In this document: positions 42,815 through 59,354 of the stretch, piece after piece
Layout of the letters: every line of letters begins with the position of its first letter
Numbering within the stretch: the stretch's first letter is position 1
NCBI RefSeq assembly: GCF_001956695.1
Contig: NZ_CP019070.1
Coordinates: 62,001-126,000, forward strand
Source: Poseidonibacter parvus
GTDB lineage: Bacteria; Campylobacterota; Campylobacteria; Campylobacterales; Arcobacteraceae
Direction of reading: 5' to 3'
DNA: 64,000 bases
Notes under the pieces: model-generated
What the model saw: the letters and a program-made list of their open reading frames with translations, nothing else
Told to the model about the DNA's origin: nothing
The model's database searches: none
Translations under genes and position numbers: made by a program

Positions 42815-43675
42815 ATGGAAAAACTCTTAAAAAAACTTAATGATTTTAATGAACTAGTAATGTTCAAACATTCGATATTTTCACTACCTTTTATTTTTAT
42901 TGCTATGGTTGTTGCTGCAAATGGTTGGTTTGGATTTAAATTAATGATACTTGGTATTTTAGCCGCGCTTACTGCAAGAAATTTTGCAATGGGATTTAAT
43001 AGATATATGGATAGAGATATAGATGCTTTAAATCCAAGAACTGTGAATAGACCAAATGTAGATGGAAGGATTTCGGCTTCTTCTATGTTAATATTTACAA
43101 TTGCAAATGCATTAGGATTTATTCTAATCGCATATTTTGTTAATGATTTAGCGTTATATTTATCTTTACCTATTTTATTTGTTATTGGCTCTTATTCTTA
43201 TTTTAAAAGGTTTTCATATCTTGCACATATAATATTAGGTATATCTCTAGGACTTGCACCAATAGCAGGTGTTGTAACAGTATTAGAAACTATTCCTTTA
43301 TGGTCTGTATTTCTTAGTATTGGAGTTATGTTTTGGGTTGCTGGGTTTGATTTACTTTATTCTTTACAAGATATCGAAGTAGATAAAAAATTAAATCTTC
43401 ACTCAATCCCTTCAAAATTTGGTGCTAAAAAGACAATGCTAATATCAAAAGTATTTCATTTTTTTACAGTAGTTTTTTGGTTATTATTTGTAATAAACTC
43501 AGAGAGCTCATTTTTTGCATATTTAGCAGTAATAATAAGTGCACTGATGCTAAGTTATGAACATTATTTAGTAAATAAAGATTTTACAAAAATAGATAAA
43601 GCCTTTTTCACTGTTAATGGCTACTTAGGAATTGTATTTTTTATATTGATTGTGTTAGATAATATTTTTTACTAA
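42815..43675 (+). CDS. mqnP: UbiA-family prenyltransferase, probably MqnP of menaquinone synthesis
   Basis: 286-residue membrane enzyme. The two aspartate-rich motifs are NRYMDRDID (about 66-74) and DLLYSLQDIEVDKK (about 185-198). The short form and sequence match the UbiA-like MqnP of the futalosine menaquinone pathway used by Campylobacterota; 4-hydroxybenzoate prenyltransferase is the older label. No other mqn gene is in the window. Confidence 0.85.
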   Translation: MEKLLKKLNDFNELVMFKHSIFSLPFIFIAMVVAANGWFGFKLMILGILAALTARNFAMGFNRYMDRDIDALNPRTVNRPNVDGRISASSMLIFTIANALGFILIAYFVNDLALYLSLPILFVIGSYSYFKRFSYLAHIILGISLGLAPIAGVVTVLETIPLWSVFLSIGVMFWVAGFDLLYSLQDIEVDKKLNLHSIPSKFGAKKTMLISKVFHFFTVVFWLLFVINSESSFFAYLAVIISALMLSYEHYLVNKDFTKIDKAFFTVNGYLGIVFFILIVLDNIFY

Positions 43676-43679
43676 AAAA

Positions 43680-43735
43680 GAAAGAATTTTTATAACATAA
43701 AAGGTATCTAAGTTTTTATGTGGTAATATTCTTTC
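43680..43735. repeat. Long two-block inverted repeat before tRNA-Arg
   Basis: GAAAGAAT (43680-43687) pairs with ATTCTTTC (43728-43735), and inside it ACATAAAA (43695-43702) pairs with TTTTATGT (43714-43721). It may end the prenyltransferase transcript. TAATAT at 43724-43729 inside the right arm is also the best -10 for the tRNA. Confidence 0.55.
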
Positions 43736-43747
43736 CTTATTTAAAGC

Positions 43748-43824
43748 GCGTCTGTGGCTCAACTGGATAGAGCACTGGGTTTCGGCCCCGGCGGTTGGGG
43801 GTTCGAATCCCTCCAGGCGTACCA
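43748..43824 (+). tRNA. tRNA-Arg (TCG anticodon)
   Basis: A 77-nt cloverleaf can be folded by hand: acceptor GCGTCTG/CAGGCGT, D-arm GCTC/GAGC, anticodon stem CTGGG/CCCGG with loop TTTCGGC (anticodon TCG), T-arm GGGGG/CCCTC with TTCGAAT, and encoded CCA. It decodes CGA and related codons. Its 3' 45 nt are the attachment site of the mobile element, so this part is supplied by the element. Confidence 0.96.
43779..43824 (+). repeat. Left attachment site (attL core), 46-bp direct repeat
   Basis: The 46 bp from GTTTCGGCCCCGGCGG to the tRNA CCA recur exactly at 59355-59400. They run from the anticodon stem to the tRNA 3' end, the classic target of tyrosine integrases. The 54 bp after each copy also match with five differences. 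Confidence 0.93.
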
Positions 43825-43830
43825 TTTAGA

Positions 43831-43877
43831 AGCCCGATTTAATCGCTGTTTACAGTGTTTAGGTCGGGCTTTTTTTA
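43831..43877 (+). terminator. Terminator of tRNA-Arg
   Basis: AGCCCGA (43831-43837) pairs with TCGGGCT (43864-43870), followed by seven or more T. A near copy follows the right attachment repeat. Confidence 0.88.
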
Positions 43878-44037
43878 TTTGTCAAAATATCTAAATTCCC
43901 ACCTAAATCCCACCTTTATAAATTTCTTTCTAAAAGTATCGTACTTTGAGACATCTAGTTTTTTAGGTTAAAAAGATCTATAAATTAAAAATTTAAATAA
44001 CGCCTATTCAACTTAGAAGTGCAACACCAATCTAAAA

Positions 44038-44658
44038 TTATGCTGCTAATTTCCTTTGTAAAATCTTAAAAAATATCTCATTTGGAGTTTTATAGCCAAG
44101 AACTTTTCTAGGTCTATTGTTTAGACGATTTTGTATATTTACAATTTCAGTTCTTGATTCCTTCTCCACAACTTTAGGTCTTTTATCTATAGAAATTCTA
44201 TTCTTAATAATACCTCTAGTATTGTAATCATTACTTCTTTTGTGATACTTTTTATTTTTATGTCTTAGCTTAAAATATAATCTTCCTCCACAACTTTTGT
44301 TATGGTAAATGTATTGATATATAGTTTCATAAGATACTGTATATGAAAGCTTTTGTTTTTTCATAACACCTGATATCTGTTCTGGAGACCAATCTAATTT
44401 TAGTTTCTCTTGAATATAAATTTTAACCTTTTTGGTGAGTTTTACAAATTTGTTTTTCTTATTGTGTCTAGTAAAGGTTAATTGCTCAGAAACTTCAGCT
44501 TGATATTTATTATATTTACTATCTCTGCTAATCTCTCTACTTATTGTTGATTGAGATTTATCTAATATTTTTGCTATGTCATTTTGGGTATATCCAACTT
44601 TAATATAAGCAGATATTTGATATCGTTCTTTTAGGGGTAACTGCGTGAATTTTTTCAT
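44038..44658 (-). pseudogene. IS30-family transposase lacking its catalytic core
   Basis: 206 residues where full-length IS30 transposases have about 310-320. The N-terminus is an intact HTH (LPLKERYQISAYIKVGYTQNDIAKILDKSQSTISREI) and the C-terminus has NRLNNRPRKVLGYKTPNEIFF. The join VEKESR-TEIVNIQ removes the whole region that normally carries GDWE.DT, TDNGKEF and the ENxNG glutamate, all three DDE residues. The deletion is in frame. TAGAAGT occurs in inverted orientation at 44014-44020 and 44724-44730, perhaps remains of the insertion sequence ends. Such a protein could still bind its ends but not transpose. Confidence 0.85.
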
Positions 44659-44789
44659 AAATATTTTCCTATTTTGTGGTGAAAAGGGATATCTAATATC
44701 TAGTTAACCCTTCTTAACACCTTACTTCTAGAATTTATGCATTTATGATTTGAATTGGGTTTTTATTTTATTACTAATTGTAATTTATT

Positions 44790-44921
44790 TTATTTAAACT
44801 CTTTCTTTTCCCAATCTTTCCATCTCCTTTTTTTACTTCTAAATCTAGAATATAAATTTAGGATTGTAAAAAAGATGATTGTTCCTATTATTATTATTGT
44901 CAGTGTTGGATTTTGAGTCAT
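44790..44921 (-). CDS. Predicted 43-residue membrane peptide
   Basis: Begins MTQNPTLT, then an isoleucine-rich span (IIIIGTIIFFTIL) and a strongly basic tail (RFRSKKRRWKDWEKKEFK). The ribosome site is weak (AAAGAAA). Single helix plus cationic tail is the layout of type I toxins and of many small membrane regulators. Real coding is uncertain. Confidence 0.35.
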   Translation of the reverse strand: MTQNPTLTIIIIGTIIFFTILNLYSRFRSKKRRWKDWEKKEFK

Positions 44922-45005
44922 ATTATTTCTTTAATAGTTCAGGGTTTTCGTAAAGGTTTCCAAGTAGCAGCATTTTTAAGTCGCTATAAGAACAAGTGAA
45001 ATCAC

Positions 45006-45034
45006 TTGACACTTTGTATTATATATGATATAAT
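45006..45034 (+). promoter_or_regulatory. Perfect consensus sigma-70 promoter
   Basis: TTGACA at 45006-45011, a 17-bp spacer, and TATAAT at 45029-45034. Campylobacterota promoters rarely have any recognisable -35 box, so an exact match to both hexamers with ideal spacing marks a very strong, possibly imported promoter. Transcription should begin near 45041. Confidence 0.85.
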
Positions 45035-45040
45035 TTTTGT

Positions 45041-45239
45041 CTAATTTGAAGATAACCTCTAAAACAAAGGATATTTCATAAAGAACACATTCGTGTTTTT
45101 GTTGAATTATCTCTCTGGTAGTTCATGTTAGTTCCGTTCTGTGAGTTTTTTGCCGAGAACTCAAAATGGAATATTCAAGTTTAGCTAGAAACAAACAAGA
45201 ATACTGTGTAACCCAAGTCTAGTGCTTGGGTTTTTTTTT
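45041..45239 (+). ncRNA. Structured small RNA of about 200 nt, unknown family
   Basis: The stretch between the perfect promoter and the terminator at 45210-45239 has no convincing ORF but clear helices: AGATAA/TTATCT (45050-45055 with 45107-45112) enclosing AAGAACAC/GTGTTTTT with an ATTC loop, and TTCCGTT/AATGGAA (45132-45138 with 45165-45171) enclosing GAGTT/AACTC. Size resembles 6S RNA, but the end-to-end pairing and central bubble of 6S are not seen. A segment at 45184-45199 is complementary to the start region of the ORF at 45413. Confidence 0.6.
45210..45239 (+). terminator. Rho-independent terminator of the small RNA
   Basis: Perfect stem AACCCAAG (45210-45217) / CTTGGGTT (45225-45232), 7-nt loop, then an uninterrupted T-run to 45239. 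Confidence 0.92.
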
Positions 45240-45245
45240 GCCTAA

Positions 45246-45364
45246 AAATATGTGTTTTTAGAGTTGTGGATACACCCATACCCATTCCGAACATGGCCGT
45301 TAAGCACTTCATCGCTGATAATACTGCATCTTTCAGGTGTGGAAATGTAGGACAGTGCATATTT
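45246..45364 (+). ncRNA. 5S rRNA-like RNA
   Basis: 119 nt, the length of a true 5S. From GTGGATACACCC through CCCATTCCGAAC, GTTAAGCAC, TTCATCGCTGATAATACTGCATC to TTTCAGGTGTGGAAATGTAGGAC it follows bacterial 5S. Helices still pair: helix I AAATATG (45246-45252) with CATATTT (45358-45364), extendable by wobbles; helix III CCAT (45276-45279) with ATGG (45293-45296) plus AC with GT; helix IV CTGCATC (45324-45330) with GGTGTGG (45336-45342). Loop C is 13 nt as in E. coli. Changed positions include CC for the usual bulged AA (45297-45298). It lies after a terminator and 36 bp before a ribosome site, not in an rRNA operon. Confidence 0.8.
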
Positions 45365-45412
45365 GCACAGTTGCTCTCTTTTGAGTGACTTATCTTACAA
45401 AGGAGGTGAGCC

Positions 45413-45520
45413 TTGTTTACAAGTTTTCTAGCAGTGAACTTTAATGTTCCTTATATTATTATCGCAGCATGCTATGCAGTGATATTTACAGTCTATTTAT
45501 ATATGGCTGTAACACATTAA
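45413..45520 (+). CDS. Predicted 35-residue hydrophobic peptide with very strong ribosome site
   Basis: AAAGGAGGTGA (45399-45409) is close to full complementarity with the 16S 3' end and is set 6 nt before a TTG at 45413. The frame encodes MFTSFLAVNF, then a hydrophobic span (VPYIIIAACYAVIFTVYLYM) ending AVTH; stop 45518-45520. One membrane helix of this size is typical of type I toxins and small membrane regulators. CTTG/CAAG at 45412-45423 could hide the start codon in a small hairpin. A perfect palindrome CACATTAATTAATGTG (45513-45528) overlaps the stop. Product name unknown. Confidence 0.62.
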   Translation: MFTSFLAVNFNVPYIIIAACYAVIFTVYLYMAVTH

Positions 45521-45559
45521 TTAATGTGAAAAATAAAACGTAACGGCAATTACAGTTTT

Positions 45560-45589
45560 CCCTAGTCCTCGGTTTGACTAGGGTTTTAT
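45560..45589 (+). terminator. Rho-independent terminator ending the RNA/peptide locus
   Basis: CCCTAGTC (45560-45567) pairs with GACTAGGG (45576-45583), followed by TTTT. A second hairpin just before it (AAAACGTAA with TTACAGTTTT, 45535-45559) may assist. Confidence 0.85.
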
Positions 45590-45813
45590 ATTAAACTACT
45601 CCGTAAAGATTCTAAATCATGAAAGATTTAATCCCTTCACATTCAGCACATATATCTACATAATAAAGTATGATTTTATCGTCTATAAAAACTTAGAATT
45701 TATAATGATTGAATTAAAAGCATCGTAAGTTGAGCTATAAAGCTATCGTAGATTGAGAACATATTTAAGTTTAAACTACTTGTAATAGGAATCCTACCAA
45801 GAGAATTTATATA

Positions 45814-45839
45814 AGAGATACTACAAATATAGTATCTCT
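45814..45839. terminator. Hairpin downstream of the repressor gene
   Basis: Perfect 10-bp stem AGAGATACTA / TAGTATCTCT with a 6-nt loop, 43 bp past the leftward repressor stop. The rest of 45590-45881 shows no gene I can support. Confidence 0.5.
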
Positions 45840-45881
45840 ACTATTCTTAAAAGATAAGGAGTACATAAATGCTCTTTGTAT

Positions 45882-46439
45882 CTATTTCCAGAAGCCTTTA
45901 TAATTCATAATTTCTTCATGTTCTTGTATTAAAACATAACATTCAATTTTAGATAAACTATTTTCAATAAAATTACTCAATTGCACTTTATTATTTTTAT
46001 TAATTAGAGTTACTTCAATACCCTTAATCCTTGATATTAACTCATCTTTAGAATTGAATACTGTGAAGTTGCTTTTTTCTTCTGATATATCTTTAAGAAT
46101 ATTTTGTAAATATTTTTTTGGAATCATCTTATTTGCCCAGTCAAAAAATGAACCATCCGTATAGCTCTTTATTTTATCTCTTAACTGATATTTAGTGTGA
46201 TCAAGTATCAAATCAAAAAAACTTAATACTTCTTCATTTATTAAATCTATTTCTTCTTTTTTAATAATTTCATCATAGATACCAAGTTCTAGTAATTTAT
46301 TTTTTATTGTTTTAATTGAATTGTTTTTTTTCCATTTTGAAATTGCAGGTTGTCCTATATTTAATATATTTGACAGTTCAGAAATTGTGTGAACATTATA
46401 ATATGACATAAGCCTATCAATTAATCGTGATGCATTCAT
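45882..46439 (-). CDS. Phage CI-type helix-turn-helix repressor
   Basis: 185 residues. The N-terminus (RLIDRLMSYYNVHTISELSNILNIGQPAISKWKKNNSI) is a CI-repressor-type HTH as in P2/186-like and similar phage repressors; the rest is not a LexA-like peptidase. It is divergent from the AlpA-like gene across a 138-bp region with two inverted repeats, so it likely represses excision and mobilization genes. Confidence 0.72.
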   Translation of the reverse strand: MNASRLIDRLMSYYNVHTISELSNILNIGQPAISKWKKNNSIKTIKNKLLELGIYDEIIKKEEIDLINEEVLSFFDLILDHTKYQLRDKIKSYTDGSFFDWANKMIPKKYLQNILKDISEEKSNFTVFNSKDELISRIKGIEVTLINKNNKVQLSNFIENSLSKIECYVLIQEHEEIMNYKGFWK

Positions 46440-46508
46440 AAAAATCCTTAATACAATAAACTATAATTAAGCAATTTAAAAGCTTATAAATGGAAAAATT
46501 CCTTTAAT

Positions 46509-46557
46509 ATTCCGTTTATTGGAATAAAGTATATTGTTAACTTATTATAGTAAGTTA
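46509..46557. promoter_or_regulatory. Operator-like inverted repeats between divergent regulators
   Basis: ATTCC/GGAAT at 46509-46525 and TAACTTA/TAAGTTA at 46538-46557 lie between the repressor and the AlpA-like gene, the second one close to an AAAAGGAG ribosome site. They are good candidates for repressor binding. Confidence 0.5.
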
Positions 46558-46577
46558 TTAATAAAAGGAGAATAAAT

Positions 46578-46808
46578 ATGGAAATTTCGGATATAGATGC
46601 AATTGACCCAAGTTTTAAAACATTAGTCTGTTTAAATCAAAAACAGACAGCTCAAATATTAGGAGTATCATCAAGCAGTCTAGAAAATTGGAGATCTGCG
46701 GGAATTGGTCCTTCCTACAAAAAAATAAATAGTGGAAAGCGTGGACGAATTCTTTATACAAAGAGTTCAATTGTAGAGTTTTTAAATAATACTGTAAAAA
46801 CAGTATAG
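46578..46808 (+). CDS. AlpA/excisionase-like DNA-binding protein
   Basis: 76 residues with a MerR/AlpA-like winged helix (LNQKQTAQILGVSSSSLENWRSAGIGPSYKKI, then GRILYTKSSIVEFL). Proteins of this type direct integrase toward excision or activate its gene. Strong ribosome site AAAGGAG. Located right of the operator region facing the repressor. Confidence 0.72.
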   Translation: MEISDIDAIDPSFKTLVCLNQKQTAQILGVSSSSLENWRSAGIGPSYKKINSGKRGRILYTKSSIVEFLNNTVKTV

Positions 46809-46919
46809 TTGTCCACTTATAGAGTTTTGGCAAACAGTCAAAAGTGGACTAATACCATCAGTAAGATGATATAAAATATTATCATAAATATCTTATTGGT
46901 TAAATAAATAAGGTTAAAA

Positions 46920-47258
46920 ATGAATAGTAAAAATGAAAAAGTAAAACTAGGTTTTACAACGATTCAACATGATCCCAGGATAAAATTTAATTTATCAAAT
47001 AATGATTATTGTATAGCAGATGCTATTTATAATTTATCAAATAATCCTTCCTCAATTTGTCCAGGTTGGTGTTATGCAAGTAGAGAGAAAATTGGGATAT
47101 TCTTTGGTGTGAGTAGACAATCTGTAATTACTATAGTTAAAAAACTAGTTAAAAGTAATTTAGTTGAGATTCATAATGAAACAAAGTATATACGAACAAC
47201 CCAATTATGGTATGACGAATTTGTCACATTTCAAATGAAAAAATCAAACAGGGTGTAA
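46920..47258 (+). CDS. Small helix-turn-helix protein, possible replication initiator
   Basis: 112 residues. The middle (CYASREKIGIFFGVSRQSVITIVKKLVKSNLVEIHN) is an HTH_36-like winged helix as found in phage and plasmid replication proteins. Its stop codon lies inside the first of three iteron-like repeats, which also points to replication or autoregulation. It is much shorter than typical Rep proteins, so a pure regulator is also possible. Confidence 0.6.
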   Translation: MNSKNEKVKLGFTTIQHDPRIKFNLSNNDYCIADAIYNLSNNPSSICPGWCYASREKIGIFFGVSRQSVITIVKKLVKSNLVEIHNETKYIRTTQLWYDEFVTFQMKKSNRV

Positions 47259-47317
47259 AGAAACTTGACATTAAGGTGTAAAGAAAGTTTACAGCAGGGT
47301 GTAAAGATTCTTTACAC
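47251..47317 (+). repeat. Iteron-like repeats, GGTGTAAAGA with 23-bp period
   Basis: GGTGTAAAGA occurs at 47252, 47275 and 47298, each exactly 23 bp apart. Inverted half-sites accompany the last two: TGTAAA/TTTACA and the perfect GTGTAAAGA-T-TCTTTACAC at 47299-47317. The regular helical spacing next to an HTH gene is the form of a plasmid iteron origin or an autoregulated operator. Confidence 0.75.
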
Positions 47318-47361
47318 AATAAGAATATATATAACAATATTCATAAAGAAGAGGAAGAAGA

Positions 47362-47721
47362 ATGAAATATACAAATGAATTTAAAAATTCAAAGTTTGAA
47401 TTATTTTATAAATTTATAAAAAATGATGGACTAGTTCCTAAGAAAAGTGAAAGATTACATAAGAAAAAGATTTATAGTAATCTGATGAATAATCAAAAAA
47501 TGACACTTGAAAATTTTGAAGATTACTTAGTATGGGATAAAAAAGAATCTATTAAAAGTATTATAGGTGAAGAAATAAATTATAAGAAATTAAATGGACA
47601 AATTATTGATGTTAGTTTTGAAGATAATGATTATTTAAAAATTCATATGAAAGAGGGAAATATTCTAATTCAAATAAAAGATTTTGCAGACTTTAAAAAG
47701 TTAGCATCAAATGTTTTATGA
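47362..47721 (+). CDS. Hypothetical protein of the mobilization region
   Basis: 119 residues; Lys-rich N-terminal helical half and a beta-type C-terminal half (GQIIDVSFEDNDYLKIHMKEGNILIQIKDF). A clear GAGGAAGAAG ribosome site precedes it. No family recognised. A 19-codon ORF with AAAAGGA (47735-47794) separates it from the TraJ-like gene and could be a small protein. Confidence 0.6.
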   Translation: MKYTNEFKNSKFELFYKFIKNDGLVPKKSERLHKKKIYSNLMNNQKMTLENFEDYLVWDKKESIKSIIGEEINYKKLNGQIIDVSFEDNDYLKIHMKEGNILIQIKDFADFKKLASNVL

Positions 47722-47795
47722 GAAAAGGATAAAAATGATTTTAACAATGCAATTAAATCATCAAAAAAGTGATCATCAAGTAGTGAAAGATTAAT

Positions 47796-48176
47796 ATGAG
47801 AAGACCTTTAAATCAAAACCAAAGAAGAGATATAAAAATAACGGTTAGAGTTAATCAAAATGAGCAAGAAAACTTGGTTTTAAACTCTAATAAACATGGA
47901 CTAAAAATCCCAGGATATTTAAGATCATTAGGTCTTAATTATTCTATAAAATCTATTGTTGATGAAAAAGCAGCTGCTAATCTTTTAAAAGTAAATGCAG
48001 ATATGGGAAGATTAGGAGGTCTTTTTAAAATGTGGTTAGAGGATAATAGAGCAGATAAACATGACTTTAGTAACACTAGAACTTACAAAGATATAGACAA
48101 TCTTGTAAATGATATAGAAAGACTAAAGTTAATATTAAAAAATGAAGCATTAAAAATAATGCAGAAACAAGCATGA
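47796..48176 (+). CDS. TraJ/MobC-type relaxosome accessory protein
   Basis: 126 residues with an N-terminal ribbon-helix-helix (DIKITVRVNQNEQENLVLNSNKHGLKIPGYLRSLGL) and a helical tail including NADMGRLGGLFKMWL, as in TraJ of IncP plasmids and MobC. It would bind oriT and recruit the relaxase, whose start overlaps its stop by four bases (ATGA). Confidence 0.8.
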   Translation: MRRPLNQNQRRDIKITVRVNQNEQENLVLNSNKHGLKIPGYLRSLGLNYSIKSIVDEKAAANLLKVNADMGRLGGLFKMWLEDNRADKHDFSNTRTYKDIDNLVNDIERLKLILKNEALKIMQKQA

Positions 48177-49762
48177 TAGTTAAAAAGGTAGCTGCAAAAA
48201 AAGCTACAAAATCAAGTTATAAAGCTTTAGCAAATTATATATTAGATCTAAGAAACAATATGGAAAAAGTAGAAACTTATTATTTCTCAAATTGTAGTTA
48301 TACGGAAATAGCTCACAACATTCTAGAGATTGAAAATACACAATCTTTGAATCAAAGAGTAAAACAAGATAAAACTTATCATTTGATTGTTTCTTTTCAA
48401 GAAGATGAGAATCCAAGTGATGAGATAATTCAAGATATTGAAAAGGAACTTTTACAATCAATAGGACTTGAAGATTGTCAAAGATTGAGTGTTATTCATA
48501 GTAATACTAATTATAAGCATATGCATATTGCAGTTAATTTAATAGATCCAATAACTCACAAGATTAAAAATCTACCTTTTGATAAGTTAACACTACAAAG
48601 GAAAGCTGGAGAACTGGAAATAAAACATAATTTAAAAATTACAAATCATGTTAGAAAAACTCTTGAAGAAAAAAAGAATGATATGGATGATAAAACTATT
48701 CATACAGGAATAGTTAATTTTAAAGATTGGGTAAAAGAAAATGCTGCAGCTGAGATTAAAAAAGTTTTAGCTGATGATAAAACTACCTGGAAAGATCTAT
48801 ATAAAACTTTGGCCAAATATGATCTAGAGCTAAAAGATCGAGGAAATGGAAATGTAATATCAAGTAGATCAAGAAAACTATTCATAAAAGCATCAGATAT
48901 AAGCAGAGAGCTTTCAAAAGCTAAATTAGATAAAAGATATGGAGAAAAAGATAAAGAGGCTTTAAAAACAATTATAGACAAAATAGAACCTATACATAAG
49001 TTTGAACTAAAAACTAATCTTAAATCAAATCTTTGGGATGAATATAGAGAGTTTGAAAAAATAAAACTCCAGGAAAAAGAAATATTATTAGTAAAAGAAA
49101 AGCAACAAAGAGAATTATATAAATTGAATGTCAAAAAAAAGTGGCAAATACACAGAGAAAAAACTATGAAAGATAGAACTATCTCTAGACAAGAGAAACA
49201 AAAAATTTATAAAATGATTAATGAATCTAGAAAGAAAGAGTTAAGTACTTATCAAGTCCAATTTAAAGAGCAAAGATTAGAAATATATTCAAAGTATAAA
49301 AAGCTTTCATATAAAGATTATCTTATAAATAAATCTTTAACTGGCAATAAAATGGCCCTTGAATCGTTGAGAAGAACTAAACCAGAAATTAAACCTAAGG
49401 AAAACACTTTTGCAGCAATAAGTGGAAAGATGAATAATCAAATTTTTTCTTTTGGTGATAAATTAATTAATAAAGATGGATCCATAACCTATAGACTTAA
49501 TGACGAAAGTAAGGTCATAGACAAAGGTAATTATTTAAAAATAAATATAAATAATAACAAATCAAATGAAGTTCTAAATGTTTTAAAAATAGCAATAGCT
49601 AAATATGGAAAGGATTTAGATATTACAGGAACGGAAGACTTTAAACGAGAAGTAATCAAAACTGTACAAAAGTATAATTTAGATGTTAAATTTAAAGATG
49701 AAAAAATGCAAGTTATTAAAAATATATATAATAAAAAGAATGAAAATAGTTATTCTTACTAA
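48173..49762 (+). CDS. MOBP-type relaxase (TraI/VirD2-like)
   Basis: 529 residues. The N-terminal nuclease part has a candidate catalytic Tyr in KSSYKALANYILD (about 15-30) and the metal histidines in VIHSNTNYKHMHIAVNLIDP (about 105-124), the IncP TraI pattern. The remainder is Lys/Glu-rich helix typical of mobilization proteins. It nicks oriT and leads the strand to a helper conjugation system. The oriT was not located with certainty. Confidence 0.85.
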   Translation: MIVKKVAAKKATKSSYKALANYILDLRNNMEKVETYYFSNCSYTEIAHNILEIENTQSLNQRVKQDKTYHLIVSFQEDENPSDEIIQDIEKELLQSIGLEDCQRLSVIHSNTNYKHMHIAVNLIDPITHKIKNLPFDKLTLQRKAGELEIKHNLKITNHVRKTLEEKKNDMDDKTIHTGIVNFKDWVKENAAAEIKKVLADDKTTWKDLYKTLAKYDLELKDRGNGNVISSRSRKLFIKASDISRELSKAKLDKRYGEKDKEALKTIIDKIEPIHKFELKTNLKSNLWDEYREFEKIKLQEKEILLVKEKQQRELYKLNVKKKWQIHREKTMKDRTISRQEKQKIYKMINESRKKELSTYQVQFKEQRLEIYSKYKKLSYKDYLINKSLTGNKMALESLRRTKPEIKPKENTFAAISGKMNNQIFSFGDKLINKDGSITYRLNDESKVIDKGNYLKININNNKSNEVLNVLKIAIAKYGKDLDITGTEDFKREVIKTVQKYNLDVKFKDEKMQVIKNIYNKKNENSYSY

Positions 49763-50089
49763 ATCTATTACGTTTTTATTTTAAGTGTTAGTTCATAATG
49801 ATTTTATTACTAACTTGGTAATAAGACATTACTAAAAGTATAGCTAGTACTGTTCCTAAGTATTGGCTATATTGTTACTAAGTGTGTTTAAATTTATACA
49901 AAAAGATAGAAACTCATTCTTAAAAATAAAATTTTGACAAAAAAAATACAAAAATACGATTTTTTTAAATACATAATTGATATATTTGGGAATTTTTACT
50001 AGCTATAAACTATATAATTAATATTTAATAAACTTGAGATCCAGAAAAAGATATACTTTTTTCTGGAAATATACTAATAGGAAAATACT
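49763..50089. promoter_or_regulatory. Non-coding stretch with hairpin/operator before abiEi
   Basis: No ORF is supported here. CCAGAAAAA (50041-50049) and TTTTTCTGG (50058-50066) form a perfect 9-bp inverted repeat 24 bp before the antitoxin start, suited to autoregulation by an AbiEi-type protein or to attenuation. A TATATAAT-like element lies shortly upstream near 50010. Confidence 0.45.
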
Positions 50090-50698
50090 ATGAAGCTCTA
50101 TGAAAAGGTATTTTATTTCATATCTGGTCACGGTAGGGGATGGGCATTCTCATCAAGTGATTTGATAAAGAAATTTGATAGACAACAAATAGATAGTACT
50201 TTATCTGATTTATCAAAAAATAAAAGAATCAGAAGAATAGCTAGAGGTATTTATGACTATCCTAAATATAGTGATTTCTTGCAAAAAGAGTTAAGCCCAG
50301 ATATTTATCAAGTAGCTCGTGCATATGCTAGAAAATTTAATTGGAGAATAGAAGTTTCTGGAGATAGTGCTTTAAATCTTTTAGATCTTTCAACACAAAT
50401 ACAAGCAAAATATATTTATCTTTCAGATGGACCAAATAAAAGGTATAAAATACTAGAGAACATAACTCTAGAATTTAAAAAGTCAGCTTTAAAAGACATT
50501 GGTTTTAAATATAAAGAGAGTTCTTTAATTGTTCAATCATTAAAAGCTTTAGGCAAAGATCATATAACTTCTAAAACGATTCATAAAATCAAAGAGCAAA
50601 TTGATTATAAAATGTATGATAAAATTTTAAAAGATACACAAAGTACGACACTATGGGTATATGAAATCATAAAGCAAATTTGTGAAAAAAACAAATAG
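50090..50698 (+). CDS. AbiEi/DUF6088-type antitoxin and transcription regulator
   Basis: 202 residues: a winged-helix N-terminus (FSSSDLIKKFDRQQIDSTLSDLSKNKRIRRIARGIYDYP) and a C-terminal domain with YARKFNWRIEVSGDSALNLLDLS and YLSDGPNKRY. This is the antitoxin of AbiE-type (type IV) systems, normally paired with an AbiEii nucleotidyltransferase toxin directly downstream. Here only a 13-codon stump follows (50709-50750), so it is an orphan that may control the methyltransferase-helicase pair behind it. Confidence 0.78.
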   Translation: MKLYEKVFYFISGHGRGWAFSSSDLIKKFDRQQIDSTLSDLSKNKRIRRIARGIYDYPKYSDFLQKELSPDIYQVARAYARKFNWRIEVSGDSALNLLDLSTQIQAKYIYLSDGPNKRYKILENITLEFKKSALKDIGFKYKESSLIVQSLKALGKDHITSKTIHKIKEQIDYKMYDKILKDTQSTTLWVYEIIKQICEKNK

Positions 50699-50708
50699 AG
50701 GAATAATA

Positions 50709-50750
50709 ATGATAGAATCAAAAACATTATCTTTGGATGATAGAACATGA
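50709..50750 (+). pseudogene. Stump of an AbiEii-type toxin gene
   Basis: Thirteen codons (MIESKTLSLDDRT) behind GAGGAATAAT, then TGA overlapping the ATG of the methyltransferase. LSLDDR resembles the LPxxDRxxLF opening of AbiEii nucleotidyltransferases. It looks like the toxin was cut off and replaced by the next gene pair; a true short leader peptide is the alternative. Confidence 0.45.
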
Positions 50751-51352
50751 AGAATACAATCAATTATTATGAAAAAAATGCAAATTCTCTAATTTCTCGA
50801 TATGAATCAGCTGATATAAGTGACTTACAAGATTTTTTAATAAACACTTTTACAAAAAAATCACAATTACTTGAAATTGGTTGTGGTTCAGGACGTGATG
50901 CTATGTTTATGACGAAACATAACTATAATATTATAGGAATTGATGGCTCATCAAATATGATAGAGGAAGCAAAAAATATTCATCCTGAATTATTGGGGAA
51001 ACTATTTCAAAAAATTTTACCAAATGATTTACAATTTGATAGAGAATTTGATGGAATTTATTCAATTGCTACATTAATGCATTTAACAAAAACTGATATA
51101 AAAAAAACCATCCTAAAAATATATAATTTATTAAATCAAAATGGAAAATTTTTAATGTCTATTTCTTTATTTAGAGATGATATTGATAAGAATGGGTTTG
51201 ATGAAAAAGGAAGGTTCTTTTTAGTATTGAATTTTGAAGAGTGGATTAAAATTTGTGAAGATTCAGGATTCAAAATCATTGAAACAAAAAGAAATAAAGA
51301 TGGACTCAATAGAAATGGCATTGAGTGGCTTACTTTAGTAGCTCAGAAATAA
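50747..51352 (+). CDS. Class I SAM-dependent methyltransferase
   Basis: 201 residues: SAM-binding LLEIGCGSGRDAMFM (about 40-54), IIGIDGSSNMIEEA, then FDGIYSIATLMHLTKTDI. It lacks a target-recognition domain and the NPPY/DPPY motif, so it is not a standard DNA methylase; TehB-like or small-molecule methylation is likelier. It ends 1 nt before the helicase gene, so the two form a tight pair. Confidence 0.8.
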   Translation: MKNTINYYEKNANSLISRYESADISDLQDFLINTFTKKSQLLEIGCGSGRDAMFMTKHNYNIIGIDGSSNMIEEAKNIHPELLGKLFQKILPNDLQFDREFDGIYSIATLMHLTKTDIKKTILKIYNLLNQNGKFLMSISLFRDDIDKNGFDEKGRFFLVLNFEEWIKICEDSGFKIIETKRNKDGLNRNGIEWLTLVAQK

Positions 51353-51353
51353 T

Positions 51354-53960
51354 ATGAATATAGAAATTATTAAAACAAATGTTATAGATTTTTTAAAACC
51401 TACGTTTAAATTTGAAAAAGAGCTACTGAGAGGTTTTTTATTAATTAACTCAAATAATAATGCAATTATGATTGATTATCAAATCTGTGATAAGTCAAAT
51501 GCTTTTAAATACAATGAGTATACAAAAGAGCAGAACTCTTTAATGTTTAAATATGATTCATGTTATAGATTTTTGATAGATGATGAAAAAGATTTTGAAG
51601 AGTTCAAAGTTATTTATTCACATATTCAAAACAATGATTTTAACGAAGATAAAATAAAACAAAGTGGAGTAAATAGAGAATTAAAAGAAATTGATCCAAC
51701 ACTGCCAGAGGCTTATTTTGAGTCAGCTTTTATTGAATGTTATGGTAGAGAGTCTTTGTCAAAAATAAGAAGAGAGTTTCCTATTATTGATTTTGATGGT
51801 CAGACAAGATGGGTTGACTATCTAATACAACATAAAGATTATAATATTGCAATAGAAAAAAATGGTGAAACTTATCATCATCCAATAATTACTGGAAAAA
51901 CTAAATATAAATCTCAACTACATAAACAAAATTCTTTAGTAGCTTATGGATTTAAAGTTTTTCGTTGGTCATTAGAGGGAATGAAAACAACTGATAATTT
52001 TTACGATGAAGTAAAAAAATATATCGGTGATCTTGAAGATTTACTAGATTTACAAAAGCTTTCAATTTCAAGAGAAATTACACTTTTAAGTCATCAAATT
52101 GATTCACTTAAAGAACTTGAACAAAGAAGAGAAAACGGAGAAAAAAACTTTTTAGTTGTTCTTCCAACAGGTACGGGTAAAACTGAAATTTTAATTGCTG
52201 ATTTGATAGAACAGTATAAAAAAGACAAATATTTAAAAGTTTTGATTTTAGTTCCCACAAAACAGTTAAAAATAGACACTATAAAGAAAGTAAATTATAG
52301 ATTTGAAAATGAATTACATGTAAAAGTATTAATTGGTGAAGAGAAAAACTCCCAAATCTTAATACAAACATATTCTTGGATGAGTAGATATTATCAAAAA
52401 TTCAACAGTTTAGATTTTGACTATATTGCAGTTGATGAAGCTCATCATGCCGTTGCACCAACTTTACAAAAAGTTATTCAATATTTTAATCCTCAAATGC
52501 TTTTAGGTTTAACAGCAACAGATAAGCGACTTGATGAAAAAAGTTTGGCTGAAATATTTGGAAAATATGAATCAAACCTAACATTGGTTGAAGCAATTAA
52601 ACAAGATATTCTAGCTCCAATAAAAGCTTTTAGAGTTAAAAGTAATATTGACTTATCAGAAGTTAGATTTAATGGAAAAGACTATTCTTCAACTGATTTA
52701 CAAAAAACAGTAATTACACCATCAAGAGACCAACTTATTGTTGATGTGCTAAAAAAGTATTTTGTTGATAAAACTATGCCTTTTAAATCAGGATTGATTT
52801 TTTGTGTTTCAGTTGCACATGCCAAAAAAGTAGCAAAACTTCTACAAGACAATGAAATATCATGTAAAGCCGTAAGTGGAAATGATAATAATTCACAAAA
52901 GTATATTGAAGAATATCAAAATGGAGAAATCCAATTTTTAACAACTTGTTCATTACTTAATGAAGGATGGGATTCTCCAAGAACTTCAATTATAGTTATG
53001 GCAAGACCCACTATGTCTAAAGTCTTATATGCACAACAGTTAGGACGAGGCACAAGAAAACATAAAGGAAAAGAAGCACTTTATGTAATTGATGTTGTTG
53101 ATAACTATGGAGGGGTAGGAACATTTAAAAATACTCCTTGGTCTATTCATTCATTACTAGGAATATCTGAATACAAACCTTGGGCAAATATGTTAAATCC
53201 AAATAAATTATCCTATGAAGAAATTTTACTTGAGGGACTTTATGAAGAAGAGAGAAAACTTGAATATATAGATATTTTTACTTTTGAGGAGAAATATGCT
53301 GATTACCTTAGTGATGAACAACTAGCAAGAGAACTTTTTATCTCAACAGGAACATTACGTTCTTGGGTAAAGAAAAATGAAGTTACTCCAGATGTTCAAA
53401 TTTCTATAGGTAAACAATTTCTAAACTATTATCACCCTTCTAAAATTGAAGAGATAAGGAAAAATAAAAAGTTAAAGGTTCATAATGATGAAACCATATA
53501 TGAAGATTTTTTTGAGTTTATCAATGAAGGAACTTATTCTCTTTCTTATAAAATGATTTTTATTTTATCATTTCTACAAACTATTGACCATAATGGAGAA
53601 TCAACTTTAGATGATTTAGTTATGGAATTTAAGAAATTTTACCAATATAGAATAGATAAAAACTTGAAAATGGATAGAAGTAAAAGTCCTTTTGAAAAGC
53701 AAGACTTTATAGATAATAACTCAAAAGTTAAACAAAATATTTTGGCAAATCCATTTGAAAAATTTGAGAGAAAAAGATTTATGTATCATTGTAAAGATTT
53801 GAATAACATTGCATTTTCAAATGTTTTATGGAACAAAATTAATAATAAAAATGATATCCAAAAAATAAAAAAGAAATTTTTTGATGATTTAATTAAATAT
53901 TATGAGGAATATGGGAACTTTGATATTGATTATTGGAAAAGTAATTGGACTATAATTTAG
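51354..53960 (+). CDS. Nuclease-helicase fusion (PD-(D/E)XK-like plus SF2 helicase)
   Basis: 868 residues. Residues about 110-215 resemble a DUF559/Vsr-like nuclease (FPIIDFDGQTRWVDYLI, YNIAIEKNGETYHHP, KQNSLVAYGFKVFRWS; candidate D, E and K/N triad). The SF2 core has LPTGTGKTEILIA (about 267), VDEAHH, GLTATDKR and ARPTMSKVLYAQQLGRGTRK. A C-terminal HTH-like stretch (LSDEQLARELFISTGTLRSWVKKNEV) follows. The type is common in defence islands. With the methyltransferase it looks like a two-gene modification/restriction-type unit of undefined class. Confidence 0.82.
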   Translation: MNIEIIKTNVIDFLKPTFKFEKELLRGFLLINSNNNAIMIDYQICDKSNAFKYNEYTKEQNSLMFKYDSCYRFLIDDEKDFEEFKVIYSHIQNNDFNEDKIKQSGVNRELKEIDPTLPEAYFESAFIECYGRESLSKIRREFPIIDFDGQTRWVDYLIQHKDYNIAIEKNGETYHHPIITGKTKYKSQLHKQNSLVAYGFKVFRWSLEGMKTTDNFYDEVKKYIGDLEDLLDLQKLSISREITLLSHQIDSLKELEQRRENGEKNFLVVLPTGTGKTEILIADLIEQYKKDKYLKVLILVPTKQLKIDTIKKVNYRFENELHVKVLIGEEKNSQILIQTYSWMSRYYQKFNSLDFDYIAVDEAHHAVAPTLQKVIQYFNPQMLLGLTATDKRLDEKSLAEIFGKYESNLTLVEAIKQDILAPIKAFRVKSNIDLSEVRFNGKDYSSTDLQKTVITPSRDQLIVDVLKKYFVDKTMPFKSGLIFCVSVAHAKKVAKLLQDNEISCKAVSGNDNNSQKYIEEYQNGEIQFLTTCSLLNEGWDSPRTSIIVMARPTMSKVLYAQQLGRGTRKHKGKEALYVIDVVDNYGGVGTFKNTPWSIHSLLGISEYKPWANMLNPNKLSYEEILLEGLYEEERKLEYIDIFTFEEKYADYLSDEQLARELFISTGTLRSWVKKNEVTPDVQISIGKQFLNYYHPSKIEEIRKNKKLKVHNDETIYEDFFEFINEGTYSLSYKMIFILSFLQTIDHNGESTLDDLVMEFKKFYQYRIDKNLKMDRSKSPFEKQDFIDNNSKVKQNILANPFEKFERKRFMYHCKDLNNIAFSNVLWNKINNKNDIQKIKKKFFDDLIKYYEEYGNFDIDYWKSNWTII

Positions 53961-53969
53961 GAGACAAGA

Positions 53970-54074
53970 TTGTCAAATTTATATCAAAAAAACTATGTGT
54001 CTGTAGATACCCATTTAAAGAAGTTATGTAAGATATATTTGATAATTTTAGTACAAATTAGTGCTACGATTTGA
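53970..54074 (+). pseudogene. Truncated third gene behind the helicase
   Basis: TTG at 53970 follows AGGAG (53959-53963) with ideal spacing and begins MSNLYQKNYVSV, but from 54006 the sequence is the duplicated flank of the HipBST module and the frame stops at 54072. It looks like the start of a third operon gene cut by arrival of the module. Confidence 0.4.
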
Positions 54075-54105
54075 AGTGTTAGAAATAGTATAAAAATATT
54101 TTATA

Positions 54106-55104
54106 CTACTTAATCCTCAATCTTTTCATCCTATCTTTATAAGATTCTTTATAAAACTCTTTTGCTTTAGGACTTAAAAAAGATTTATCAATCAAATCTT
54201 TTACCTCTAAATATGAATCTTCAATAAATTTTATAATTTTATTAAATCTTATTTCAGGTAAATCTATATACTTAGCAAAAGTTTTAAAATCATCATAAGT
54301 ATAGTAACCATATGCTTCATATGTTTCTGTATAATCATCTAATAAATCTATTGCCATATCTCCATATTTTTCATTTATATGAAATCTTGTGTTTAATAAA
54401 TCATAACTTGGTGTTAAAAAGTATTCATTAGAATCTGCTTTACTATACAAAGAAAAGTTTTTAAGATGAGCATCGCCATTACATATTAGATAATTTAAAA
54501 TAATTCTTTTGAAAAAATCTTCTTGTGATACTATACTAGTTGCTACATGCTGTTTTATCATCTTTGCACAATCTAAATAACTACAAGCATCATATTTATA
54601 ATTTTCTCCATGAGTTACTGGTGTTATTCCCATAATTCCTGCAAAATCTTCTTGATCATATTTCAAGTTTGTTTCTTCATCATAATCAAATCTTTTTGTT
54701 ATATAAGCTAACTCTCCATCACTAAACCTAATCAAACCACATGAAGCTGTAGGAATTTTAAATATACTCTTTGAAATAAGCATTGATAAATGTTCATTTG
54801 CCACAATATCTTTTTCATTTTGAATATGTCCATCCCCATTAGTAATAGGTTTTAATATATATTTACCATTACTTGCCGTTGGTATTAAATCTTTTTTTTC
54901 AAAAGTTAAGGAGATTTTATCTTGTACTCCAGAGATTGACATTCTAGGAGATAGTTCTGCTCTTTTTTTAGTAAATTCAATTCTGTCAAAATTTAAAGGA
55001 TTTGGTACATTCCCATTAAATAGTTCTTTAATACATTTTGAACAATAGTTATTCCGTAATTTCTTATTTGCTGCTAAGCAGCCTAAACATATCTTATCTT
55101 CCAT
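54106..55104 (-). CDS. hipT: HipT-like serine/threonine kinase toxin
   Basis: 332 residues, the length of HipT rather than full HipA (about 440). It opens with a zinc-finger-like CLGC...CSKC (Cys 6, 9, 21, 24). The Gly-rich loop carries SIS at 56-58 in MSISGVQDK, the pair of autophosphorylated serines in the E. coli O127 HipT. Catalytic loop GDAHLKNFSLY and metal loop SYDLL are intact, so the kinase should be active. HipT is known to phosphorylate tryptophanyl-tRNA synthetase; the target here is unknown. Confidence 0.85.
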   Translation of the reverse strand: MEDKICLGCLAANKKLRNNYCSKCIKELFNGNVPNPLNFDRIEFTKKRAELSPRMSISGVQDKISLTFEKKDLIPTASNGKYILKPITNGDGHIQNEKDIVANEHLSMLISKSIFKIPTASCGLIRFSDGELAYITKRFDYDEETNLKYDQEDFAGIMGITPVTHGENYKYDACSYLDCAKMIKQHVATSIVSQEDFFKRIILNYLICNGDAHLKNFSLYSKADSNEYFLTPSYDLLNTRFHINEKYGDMAIDLLDDYTETYEAYGYYTYDDFKTFAKYIDLPEIRFNKIIKFIEDSYLEVKDLIDKSFLSPKAKEFYKESYKDRMKRLRIK

Positions 55105-55106
55105 TT

Positions 55107-55433
55107 TTATATCTCATCTTTTTCTATTGTAATAGAACCTATTGTGTTCTCTTTTGTTGTTAATAGTAATCTTGAAAAATCATCATTTTTATCAATTCTA
55201 AGTTCTTTGCATTGAATATCTTTTAATTTACCTTCTGCTAATAAATTATAAAAAAAAGGAAATAAATTCTTTGAGGTAAACTCCTCTTCTTGTAATGGAA
55301 ATGTAAGACTAATAGCTTTTGAATTATCTTTACTTAAATACTCTTTGTTATAAACAAAACTATAGCTATTTTCATCAAGTTTTGTAAGTAAACCAGTAAA
55401 TATACTATTTCTAAAAACTTTTGCTCTTTGCAT
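55107..55433 (-). CDS. hipS: HipS-like antitoxin (HipA N-subdomain-1 protein)
   Basis: 108 residues equal to the N-terminal subdomain that is fused in HipA: VFRNSIFTGLLTK at the start and FFYNLLAEGKL in the middle. In HipBST this small protein, not HipB, is the direct antitoxin. It shares one base with hipB and lies 2 bp before hipT. Confidence 0.82.
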   Translation of the reverse strand: MQRAKVFRNSIFTGLLTKLDENSYSFVYNKEYLSKDNSKAISLTFPLQEEEFTSKNLFPFFYNLLAEGKLKDIQCKELRIDKNDDFSRLLLTTKENTIGSITIEKDEI

Positions 55434-55645
55434 TATTTAATCTTCACTTTGATATCCAATTCCATTCCTAATACATCTAAAAGTTTTTCTAGTGTTTTAA
55501 TTGTAGGATTTGCTTTTCCATTTTCAATCTCAGATATTGAAACATAATTAACACCCGAATAATCTTGTAAATCTTTTAATTCAAGATTTAATTCTTTTCT
55601 TCTTTTTTTAATAGTCTTACCTATTTTAGTAGAGGTAGCTTCCAT
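55433..55645 (-). CDS. hipB: HipB-like XRE-family DNA-binding protein
   Basis: 70 residues; XRE helix-turn-helix (IGKTIKKRRKELNLELKDLQDYSGVNYVSISEIENGKANPTIKTLEKLLDVLG). First gene of the leftward operon; likely autorepressor acting on the palindromes upstream. Confidence 0.88.
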   Translation of the reverse strand: MEATSTKIGKTIKKRRKELNLELKDLQDYSGVNYVSISEIENGKANPTIKTLEKLLDVLGMELDIKVKIK

Positions 55646-55668
55646 TTTAATACCTTAATATATATTTC

Positions 55669-55749
55669 TATTTAGTATATAAGTTAAATATGACCAATTA
55701 TATAGCTTCTAAAATAAATATTTGCTTTAGTTTTAGTATATATACTAAA
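55669..55749 (-). promoter_or_regulatory. Operator region of inner HipBST module
   Basis: A perfect 18-bp palindrome TTTAGTATATATACTAAA at 55732-55749 and a partial one (TATTTA...TAAATA, 55669-55690) flank the promoter region upstream of hipB. In the outer copy the first palindrome is broken in its left half (61391-61408). Confidence 0.6.
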
Positions 55750-55815
55750 TAGTATTGTTTCCATTATGAATATTTAAGAGAATATTTCATATTTAGCATA
55801 TATATGAAATATAAG

Positions 55816-56154
55816 TTATAAAATATCTTCTGGATTAATTTCTCTAGTATGTGGATTATATGGCTTATGTTTTTTATCTCCAATTACAATTTTTTTTATT
55901 TTTGGAGTTTTATCTGTTTCTTTTAGTTCTGCAGTTTTATTTTGTACAATGTTAGAGATAGAAAATCTTTTATCTTTATTAAAAATAAATTCTTGAAAAT
56001 ATCTATTAAATTGTTTATAAGACATAGAAATTATTTCTTCTTTTTTGAGTAGTTCATATAAATGTTTGGCAACAACAAGTCCTCTTTTATAATACAAATC
56101 TTTAATATAATCATAATTACTAAAAAATTGAACTTTAGCAGTACCTCTTTGCAT
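55816..56154 (-). CDS. TraK-like mobilization accessory protein (tentative)
   Basis: 112 residues. LYYKRGLVVAKHLYELLKKEEIISMSYKQFNRYFQEFIF resembles the N-terminal helical domain of TraK-type oriT-binding proteins (IncP), followed by a basic tail. That would fit the TraJ/TraI-like genes 8 kb away, but the separation is unusual. Without searches it remains a tentative call. Confidence 0.45.
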   Translation of the reverse strand: MQRGTAKVQFFSNYDYIKDLYYKRGLVVAKHLYELLKKEEIISMSYKQFNRYFQEFIFNKDKRFSISNIVQNKTAELKETDKTPKIKKIVIGDKKHKPYNPHTREINPEDIL

Positions 56155-56406
56155 AATTAATGTCCTTTAATGTCTTTTTAATAGATTTAAGGTTATTTTA
56201 CTTATATATAACTTAAAAATTAATCAAGTAAGTAAAATTGAGATAAAGTGACATATAATGCATTAGAAGAAAAAGGCAAGATGTGTAAAAGACTGTCATT
56301 AATAAATTAATTGAAAGTTTTTACTATCTTGAATTTATTCACAATGTAATTGTTCAACAGAAATGATACATATTGAATTAAAAATATTTATAATAAGGAT
56401 CCTGTA

Positions 56407-57807
56407 TTGATTAATGATAAAGAACTTAATGAACTATTTGAGAAGAAAAAAGAGTATTTTAATAATAAAACAAAAGATGAGATAAAAGATTGTATTACTA
56501 AGGATTCTGAATATAATGTGGTAACTTTAAAACTTGAACTTAAAGACTTTGGTTTTTTTAAAGAAGCTAAAAATGTAGAAAAACTGATGATTTATTTTGG
56601 AGTATACGATAATGATACAAATGAATATTTAGATTATTCAACTTATTCAAATGTTGATATTAATGCTGATATCATATTGTCAAGAAGATCTGTCATAGTT
56701 AAAAAAATCAATAAATATTTAAATTTTGATGCTAACTTATCCTTTAAAATATTTATTGTCCCTATTATTCAAGAAAATGAAGACTTGATCTTTTCTTTAG
56801 AACAAAAACTATATTTACCAGATATAACAAGTACTAATAATGAGAACTTTTTGGGTAGTTCAAAGAAACTTCTTACATTTCTATATAGTAAAATATTGCC
56901 AATATTTATATTTATTTTAATTCCTGCCAATGTATATATTTATTTAATAAAAAAAATAGGTTTAGTTGAATCCTTAATTGATATTTCGACAATAACTACA
57001 ACGGTAATATATTTATTAAATGAGACAATAAATATACTTTTTGATAATTTACTTTCATTTTTTATTGGAGGAATATTATTTATTCCAGTTTATTTATTAA
57101 TTATATTTTTTTTCACAGTTTATGGCTTTTACATTTTTAGCAAAGTCTTTAGAGTTATAAAAAAGTTAGTCTTATGTAATACAAAAAATGAATATCATGA
57201 GATACTTTATGAAAAAATTACAATAAAAAGGCTCCATTTCGATTTAGTACCTATGATTAAATCTTTTTTCTCAACTAAATATATATATTTATACTCATTA
57301 ACTTATTCATTGCTAGTATTGTTTTTATTTATGGTCTTTTTTATTACTCAAATAGCTGATACAAATAAAAATAGTATAAATAGTATAAATAAAATAAATA
57401 CTGTAATATCGATTGCTGCGAATGAGTATATTCAATATTCTGCCTTTCCTAAGCTAGCTAATATAAAATTAAAAAATGAATCTTCTAAAAAAGAATTTGT
57501 ATTATTTATGGGCTATGATAAAACATACAGTTACTATTACGATATAAGTTATATTAATAATGTTTTATCAAAGTATTCAAGTAATGAAATACAAAAGTTT
57601 ATGGAAGATTATAAAAAACACAATAATCATCAAAAAATTGAAATTTCTTTTCAAGATATATTTAAAACTTTTCTAGCTGGACATATAGATAATAATAATA
57701 TAAAAGCAATAAAAAATGATATGTATGAGTTTTATGATATAGGTAAATTTAGTATGGGTGGAGATATTTTTTCTAAATTAAAAGATGGAGAACTTAGTAT
57801 CAAATAA
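56407..57807 (+). CDS. Membrane protein of unknown function
   Basis: 466 residues from a TTG at 56407 behind AAGGA. A soluble N-terminal part of about 155 residues precedes four likely membrane segments (about 160-182, 188-210, 215-245 and 295-318). A soluble C-terminal part includes INTVISIAANEYIQYSAFP and FVLFMGYDKTYSYYY. No family recognised. It sits between the HipBST module and the integrase and is probable accessory cargo. Confidence 0.65.
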   Translation: MINDKELNELFEKKKEYFNNKTKDEIKDCITKDSEYNVVTLKLELKDFGFFKEAKNVEKLMIYFGVYDNDTNEYLDYSTYSNVDINADIILSRRSVIVKKINKYLNFDANLSFKIFIVPIIQENEDLIFSLEQKLYLPDITSTNNENFLGSSKKLLTFLYSKILPIFIFILIPANVYIYLIKKIGLVESLIDISTITTTVIYLLNETINILFDNLLSFFIGGILFIPVYLLIIFFFTVYGFYIFSKVFRVIKKLVLCNTKNEYHEILYEKITIKRLHFDLVPMIKSFFSTKYIYLYSLTYSLLVLFLFMVFFITQIADTNKNSINSINKINTVISIAANEYIQYSAFPKLANIKLKNESSKKEFVLFMGYDKTYSYYYDISYINNVLSKYSSNEIQKFMEDYKKHNNHQKIEISFQDIFKTFLAGHIDNNNIKAIKNDMYEFYDIGKFSMGGDIFSKLKDGELSIK

Positions 57808-57907
57808 ATCTTTGCCTATTATCAGTATATTCAGCTAATGGAAAACTTTCTAATTGATTTAATAGGTGTGATGGAGTTGCTTATATAGATAATTAGATTT
57901 AGTTGAA

Positions 57908-57926
57908 TTAGTTGAAATTCAACTAA
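57908..57926. promoter_or_regulatory. 19-bp perfect palindrome between convergent genes
   Basis: TTAGTTGAA-A-TTCAACTAA, extendable by one pair on each side. It lies between the 3' ends of the membrane protein and the integrase, so it may be a terminator for both, though no T-run follows. The remaining 57808-58077 shows nothing else I can support. Confidence 0.45.
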
Positions 57927-59205: not shown

Positions 59206-59228
59206 CTATTTCCCATCTATAATTATCT

Positions 59229-59339: not shown

Positions 59340-59354
59340 AAATTAATTTCTCAA

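Follow-up and report, generated by a model that had tools for sequence, protein, structure and literature searches.

A 5S rRNA-like mRNA leader in tandem with an antisense RNA: a candidate type I toxin-antitoxin-like module on mobile elements of Arcobacteraceae

In known type I toxin-antitoxin systems the antitoxin gene usually lies antisense or divergent to the toxin gene, although this arrangement is outside the strict definition of the type. The tisB/istR and zor/orz systems of Escherichia coli combine a small membrane toxin, a long structured leader and an RNA antitoxin with its own promoter and a short complementarity to that leader, features shared with the locus described here. Regulatory use of a 5S rRNA fold is known from plants, where the mimic associated with TFIIIA goes by the short name P5SM. 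It consists of a 5S fold inside an mRNA, as outlined in PMC5972288. In bacteria, the leader of the bL25 (rplY) mRNA is regulated by a 5S-binding protein (PMC10931766, in outline). As summarised in PMC8322730, the aapA/isoA system of Helicobacter pylori consists of a hydrophobic membrane peptide of about 30 aa and an antisense RNA antitoxin; the full-length aapA1 mRNA is kept silent by its folding until it is processed, and its duplex with the antisense RNA is degraded by RNase III. An atypical double-stranded RNA structure upstream of 5S has also been described in the RNase III-dependent maturation of rRNA in H. pylori (summarised in PMC8708148).

The locus analysed here lies in a window of 64,000 nt from Poseidonibacter parvus (NZ_CP019070.1, positions 62,001 to 126,000; coordinates are counted from the first letter of the window), where a structured RNA (RNA1), a 5S rRNA-like RNA (the 5S mimic) and a small ORF follow one another on the plus strand. 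They are found just inside the left end of what is, from its gene content, a 15.6-kb tRNA-Arg-integrated mobilisable island (43779-59400), as indicated by the 46-bp direct repeats attL (43779-43824, plus strand, the 3' half of tRNA-Arg) and attR (59355-59400, plus strand), a tyrosine integrase (58078-59205, minus strand) and a MobA/VirD2-like relaxase (48173-49762, plus strand) with a NikA-like protein (47796-48176, plus strand). Between attL and the module there is a transposase frame of only 206 aa (44038-44658, minus strand; Pfam HTH_38), probably internally deleted and presumably IS30-like. The island also carries defence cargo (an AbiEi-like protein, a methyltransferase and a large restriction-type helicase, 50090-53960) and, at 54106-55645, HipB with HipA split into N-terminal (108 aa) and C-terminal (331-332 aa) proteins. 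A very similar split-HipA copy is located just outside attR (59765-61092), and hipB followed by split hipA also occurs at L049 722-2279, beside one of the further copies of the module (G034); we take these sets to resemble hipBST.

Among 104 family genomes searched at the DNA level, the same order of RNA1, 5S mimic and small ORF was recognised in three more Arcobacteraceae genomes (G045, G019 and G034, the last an uncultured Aliarcobacter MAG), which brings the known copies to four only. The G045 copy resides in a prophage with a terminase, a DnaB helicase, a CI-like repressor and an integrase beside the gene for RNase P RNA. Next to the G019 copy are genes with a single PHROG match (function unknown, 35 bits), which weakly suggests phage-like neighbours. 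The four genomic contexts are distinct, and two or more of them are mobile; the module is by all appearances rare and mobile. When 398 genomes of the order were searched by pattern, four gave matches, of which G000 and G045 were genuine and G125 and G331 were rejected for want of a 5S match. A scan of genome contigs returned 27 loci with a 5S-like RNA in one only (L070, the G034 contig). In IMG/VR, neither the peptide scan nor pattern scans for the 5S core, the terminator-5S junctions and the P3 hairpin yielded a copy of the module (one pattern scan was without any match and the matches of the others were examined). The phage records searched gave no match, and two plasmid matches (H1 and H2) were both rRNA operons.

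RNA1 appears to be transcribed from an exact TTGACA-17-TATAAT promoter with a TG preceding the -10 box (45006-45034, plus strand). Of the 22 promoter-like sites in 43500-46600 it is the only one that agrees at 12/12 positions; shuffles give 19.6 sites, so the looser ones show no enrichment. With its start inferred, RNA1 extends over 45041-45239 (plus strand) and ends in a terminator (45210-45239, plus strand) formed by a stem at 45210-45232 and a run of Ts; four terminator-like sites were found where 0.7 were expected. The folding energy of RNA1 is -53.1 kcal/mol (z -4.73; 0 of 200 shuffles equally stable), and no plus-strand frame of 25 aa or more is contained in it. An earlier sequence-only reading of this stretch, which had described a perfect consensus promoter followed by about 200 nt of folded non-coding RNA and a terminator, is therefore confirmed on all these points. 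Its further suggestion that such a promoter is out of the ordinary is not supported for this genome, which contains 23 perfect TTGACA-N17-TATAAT sites (against one with a backward control pattern), six of which precede the six true 5S genes by 5.3-5.5 kb; the class thus serves rRNA operons here and is unexceptional, and the RNA1 promoter is of the rRNA class. A promoter-like site is also present 219-228 nt upstream of the 5S mimic in the window, G045 and G019.

RNA1 is strongly folded in every copy, with z-scores of -4.7 in the window, -6.1 and -7.6 in G045 and G019, and -4.1 in G034. A four-helix junction (45069-45176, plus strand) is common to three of the four copies (window, G045 and G019) and comprises P1 (45069-45079/45166-45176), P2 (45080-45088/45093-45101), P3 (45102-45111/45117-45126) and P4 (45143-45147/45158-45162), all on the plus strand, with 86, 87 and 89 bases enclosed by P1 in the window, G045 and G019, respectively. 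A covariance model built from homologous elements, the check that the sequence-only reading had proposed, was derived from G045 and G019 alone, the window being left out because MAFFT had misplaced its P3 and P4; this model recovers the window RNA1 with 40 bits (E 8e-7 over 140 kb). In the model-fitted alignment 94.3% of cells are paired and 6 of 29 pairs show two-sided changes, a level reached in 0 of 500 shuffles; as only three sequences are compared and they are fitted to the structure, this covariation is supportive rather than final. The RNA1 of G034, cut by a contig end, is unrelated in sequence to the other three and unalignable with them. No Rfam family matches RNA1 at or above its gathering score. 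Over the 104 family genomes the model was strong only in its own two sources, in a first look that was insensitive given that the window genome itself was missed; three weak matches (24-29 bits) were set aside with no 5S beside them.

The 5S mimic (45248-45363, plus strand), the leader of the small ORF, starts eight bases past the final T of the RNA1 terminator, and its match to RF00001 spans the whole Rfam model. The four mimics score 64.5 (window), 72.2 (G045), 67.5 (G019) and 77.7 bits (G034), where the gathering cut-off is 38. No LSU match was found in the window or in loci L010, L011 and L018, which places the mimics outside an rRNA operon, a check that is limited upstream in G034 by a contig beginning only 193 bases before the mimic. 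Compensated changes on both sides are seen in ten of the 34 model pairs, a number that none of 500 shuffles reached; helix I, with all cells paired, accounts for five of them. When the 5S model was run over two genera (31 and 10 genomes), the low-scoring copies that could be placed outside an rRNA operon were those of the window and G019 only, plus G034; high-scoring copies were inspected in part. The copies of G007, G008 and G029 were cut by contig ends. A low-scoring 5S in G027 and a 5S copy in G025 were rejected as modules, being accompanied by an LSU fragment and by LSU, respectively. The G027 case (G027:C118, L195, an Aliarcobacter draft) consists of a divergent 23S fragment and a 49-bit 5S, probably foreign sequence in the assembly.

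Downstream of the mimic, a strong Shine-Dalgarno sequence (AAAGGAGG, 45399-45406, plus strand) precedes a small ORF (45413-45520, plus strand) with a TTG start that encodes 35 aa with one predicted membrane span, and a terminator follows (45560-45583, plus strand). The peptides of the four copies measure 33-36 aa, with a best 19-aa hydropathy of 1.69-2.42. The gene is, on the evidence of its codon-position changes, under purifying selection: pS is 0.69 and pN 0.26 between the window and G019, and a third-position excess is seen in all three pairs. No Pfam match and no known toxin family (Pfam, NCBIfam at cut-off) was obtained, the one NCBIfam match being CoxD at 14.1 bits, far under the cut-off. 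Over 104 genomes of the family and 398 of the order, two sets that overlap, a profile of the peptide recovers only the copies in the window, G019 and G045 (73-78 bits); the next best match reaches 20.3 bits. For the G034 peptide, a search of 104 genomes gave a single match of 15.7 bits, at whose locus nothing 5S-like was seen. Two further frames, each combining a hydrophobic stretch with a basic tail, are divergent to RNA1, one of 43 aa in the window (44790-44921, minus strand) and one of 36 aa in G045 (L010 2151-2261, plus strand, read by eye); they may belong to the module as well.

The most obvious target of RNA1 is the mRNA of the peptide downstream. The linker that joins the junction to the terminator (45177-45212, plus strand) is complementary to the leader and to the beginning of the small ORF: 45184-45199 matches the start codon and adjoining codons (45412-45432), and 45203-45211 the leader after the 5S mimic (45363-45371). 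In all four copies the linker pairs with the post-mimic leader and with the Shine-Dalgarno sequence, the start codon or the first codons. When the leader and the initiation region were treated as separate targets, the cognate pair outscored all others in each row and each column of the two 4x4 matrices. The same was obtained when whole RNA1 and mRNA were cofolded, with net energies of -17.6, -26.7, -24.7 and -20.6 kcal/mol for the cognate pairs and of -1.0 to -11.3 kcal/mol for the 12 non-cognate pairs. Dinucleotide-shuffled linkers matched the observed leader pairing in 203, 0, 0 and 29 of 2000 cases and the initiation-region pairing in 176, 6, 5 and 0 of 2000 (window, G045, G019 and G034, respectively), so that the window copy alone is unconvincing, its linker being matched by about 1 in 10 shuffles per target. 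In a test with a longer leader, 78, 17, 4 and 25 of 2000 plain shuffles were as good, and the G034 linker paired better with the leader of G019 (-16.4) than with its own (-14.7). With its own initiation region, the G034 linker reaches a predicted -28.2 despite an unalignable RNA1, and this result carries the most weight, because strong pairing would have been kept though the RNA1 sequence is unrelated. The proposal of the sequence-only reading that a regulatory RNA is carried by the element stands in that RNA1 is real, is kept in structure in homologous elements and, given its cognate pairing, is very probably regulatory; the reading overlooked the downstream half of the module, namely the 5S-like RNA (RF00001, 64.5 bits) and the small coding gene.

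The combination of a conserved, cognate-specific antisense RNA with the mRNA of a small membrane peptide, both carried by mobile elements, speaks for a type I toxin-antitoxin-like module. It is probable, if far from certain, that the locus is such a module, mobile and encoded in tandem, with the 5S mimic as leader of the peptide mRNA. A small hydrophobic protein-coding gene and an RNA with specific complementarity to its mRNA are both present; on the other hand, the candidate antitoxin gene is neither antisense nor divergent to the candidate toxin gene, both being in tandem on the same strand. No promoter between RNA1 and the mimic was shared among the copies searched (G019 alone has a 9/12 site 29 nt before its 5S-like RNA), and the peptide mRNA is therefore probably a read-through product, on which the antisense sequence would also be present in cis, unusual for type I systems. 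The terminated RNA1 would be the product in excess and would bind the peptide mRNA in trans, over the leader and the start codon, so that initiation is prevented and RNase III can attack the duplex. In the predicted fold of the read-through transcript the linker folds in cis onto the leader and start, and this pairing could keep the long transcript silent until a cut at the mimic, as in a 5S precursor, separated the linker and freed an active mRNA that RNA1 would then have to neutralise. After loss of the element the short-lived RNA1 would disappear first and the membrane peptide would harm the cell; alternatively, the module might act in phage exclusion. The processing precedents of H. pylori make such steps plausible, not more (PMC8322730, PMC8708148, both in summary). 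A bolder version, possible yet rather doubtful, gives the mobile-element mRNA a functional 5S rRNA domain: 5S-binding ribosomal proteins would attach to the mimic, or host enzymes for 5S processing would mature it (at the extreme, it would dock on the 50S subunit). Peptide release would then be tied to ribosome assembly, with the antisense RNA setting the threshold, in an addiction or phage-exclusion module sensing ribosome biogenesis.

The complementarity could also be a cis processing stem only, RNA1, the terminator hairpin and the 5S mimic forming one precursor that is cut as in an rRNA operon, without any regulation of the peptide in trans. The minimum-energy folds of all four read-through transcripts do enclose the terminator and the mimic in a stem, the true 5S genes of the genome show, by eye, a short stem at their flanks (TACTCA/TGAGTA) and TTTTGC immediately ahead of the 5S, and the H. 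pylori structure upstream of 5S is a parallel (PMC8708148, in summary). However, a strong terminator lies within the stem and the linker covers the Shine-Dalgarno sequence, start codon or first codons in every copy, which 5S processing does not need, and we regard this explanation as unlikely. Less likely still is that the mimic acts as a sensor, switching read-through or translation of the small ORF when free ribosomal proteins L5, L18 or L25 bind it, as the plant mimic does for TFIIIA splicing. The 5S fold appears to be under selection, the four mimics keeping 29, 31, 32 and 31 of the 34 model pairs where five true copies keep 30-33, and the plant mimic bound by L5 would offer a precedent (PMC5972288, in outline); but the window mimic has two U-U mismatches in helix II, and the antisense linker would be left without explanation. 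RNA1 might also act in trans as an sRNA on targets elsewhere, in the host or in a phage, with the small ORF beside it incidental. Its own promoter, its terminator and a conserved junction beyond the linker would be in keeping with this idea, which is very improbable in view of the cognate-specific pairing of RNA1 with its own downstream gene in all four copies. Degeneration, with the mimic being either what a deleted rRNA operon left behind or a 5S pseudogene in decay, is suggested by a score in the window below that of the true copies (64.5 against 82.5-82.9 bits) but is scarcely tenable, being already contradicted by covariation in the compensated helices, by the same non-rRNA neighbours in the four copies and by the grouping of the four mimics in one clade separate from host 5S (support 93/87; 90% of 200 bootstrap trees, from an alignment of only 114 columns with long branches for the window and G034 mimics).

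The locus would thus work, to judge from its sequence, like a type I system with the peptide as candidate toxin, and it can be set against the systems from which this account started. Unlike the present module, tisB/istR and zor/orz have divergent genes and no 5S mimic. With respect to 5S rRNA itself (RF00001), the mimic is alike in fold and sequence across the whole model and differs in being stand-alone, with no 23S upstream, in a clade of its own and joined to a coding frame. We know of no bacterial mRNA with a complete 5S rRNA fold as its leader. In the open-access literature nothing was found that links a 5S rRNA-like RNA with a prophage or describes phage-encoded 5S mimicry, and the titles and abstract openings on type I systems, Arcobacter RNAs and mobile elements mention no such module. 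The bL25 (rplY) leader is an irregular hairpin serving as translational operator and not a whole 5S fold, as outlined in PMC10931766. In aapA/isoA, IsoA is called an asRNA in the sections consulted of PMC8322730 and is taken to be encoded opposite aapA, whereas RNA1 precedes its proposed target on one and the same strand; a conserved RNA1 junction and a 5S-mimic leader further distinguish the present module, whose peptides, with no Pfam match and no NCBIfam match at cut-off, are set beside AapA by description only. The nearest published idea is the plant TFIIIA mimic (PMC5972288, as outlined there), which is eukaryotic, controls splicing and has no antisense RNA. What stands out in the Arcobacteraceae locus is a complete 5S fold as mRNA leader, with compensatory changes over four contexts, beside an antisense RNA encoded in the same direction. 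Should the proposed mechanism be true, this would be a new architecture for RNA-controlled toxins and a possible link between the maintenance of mobile elements and ribosome biogenesis; isolated '5S rRNA' annotations could then flag such modules, and the four cognate pairs with predicted specificity provide a clean test system.
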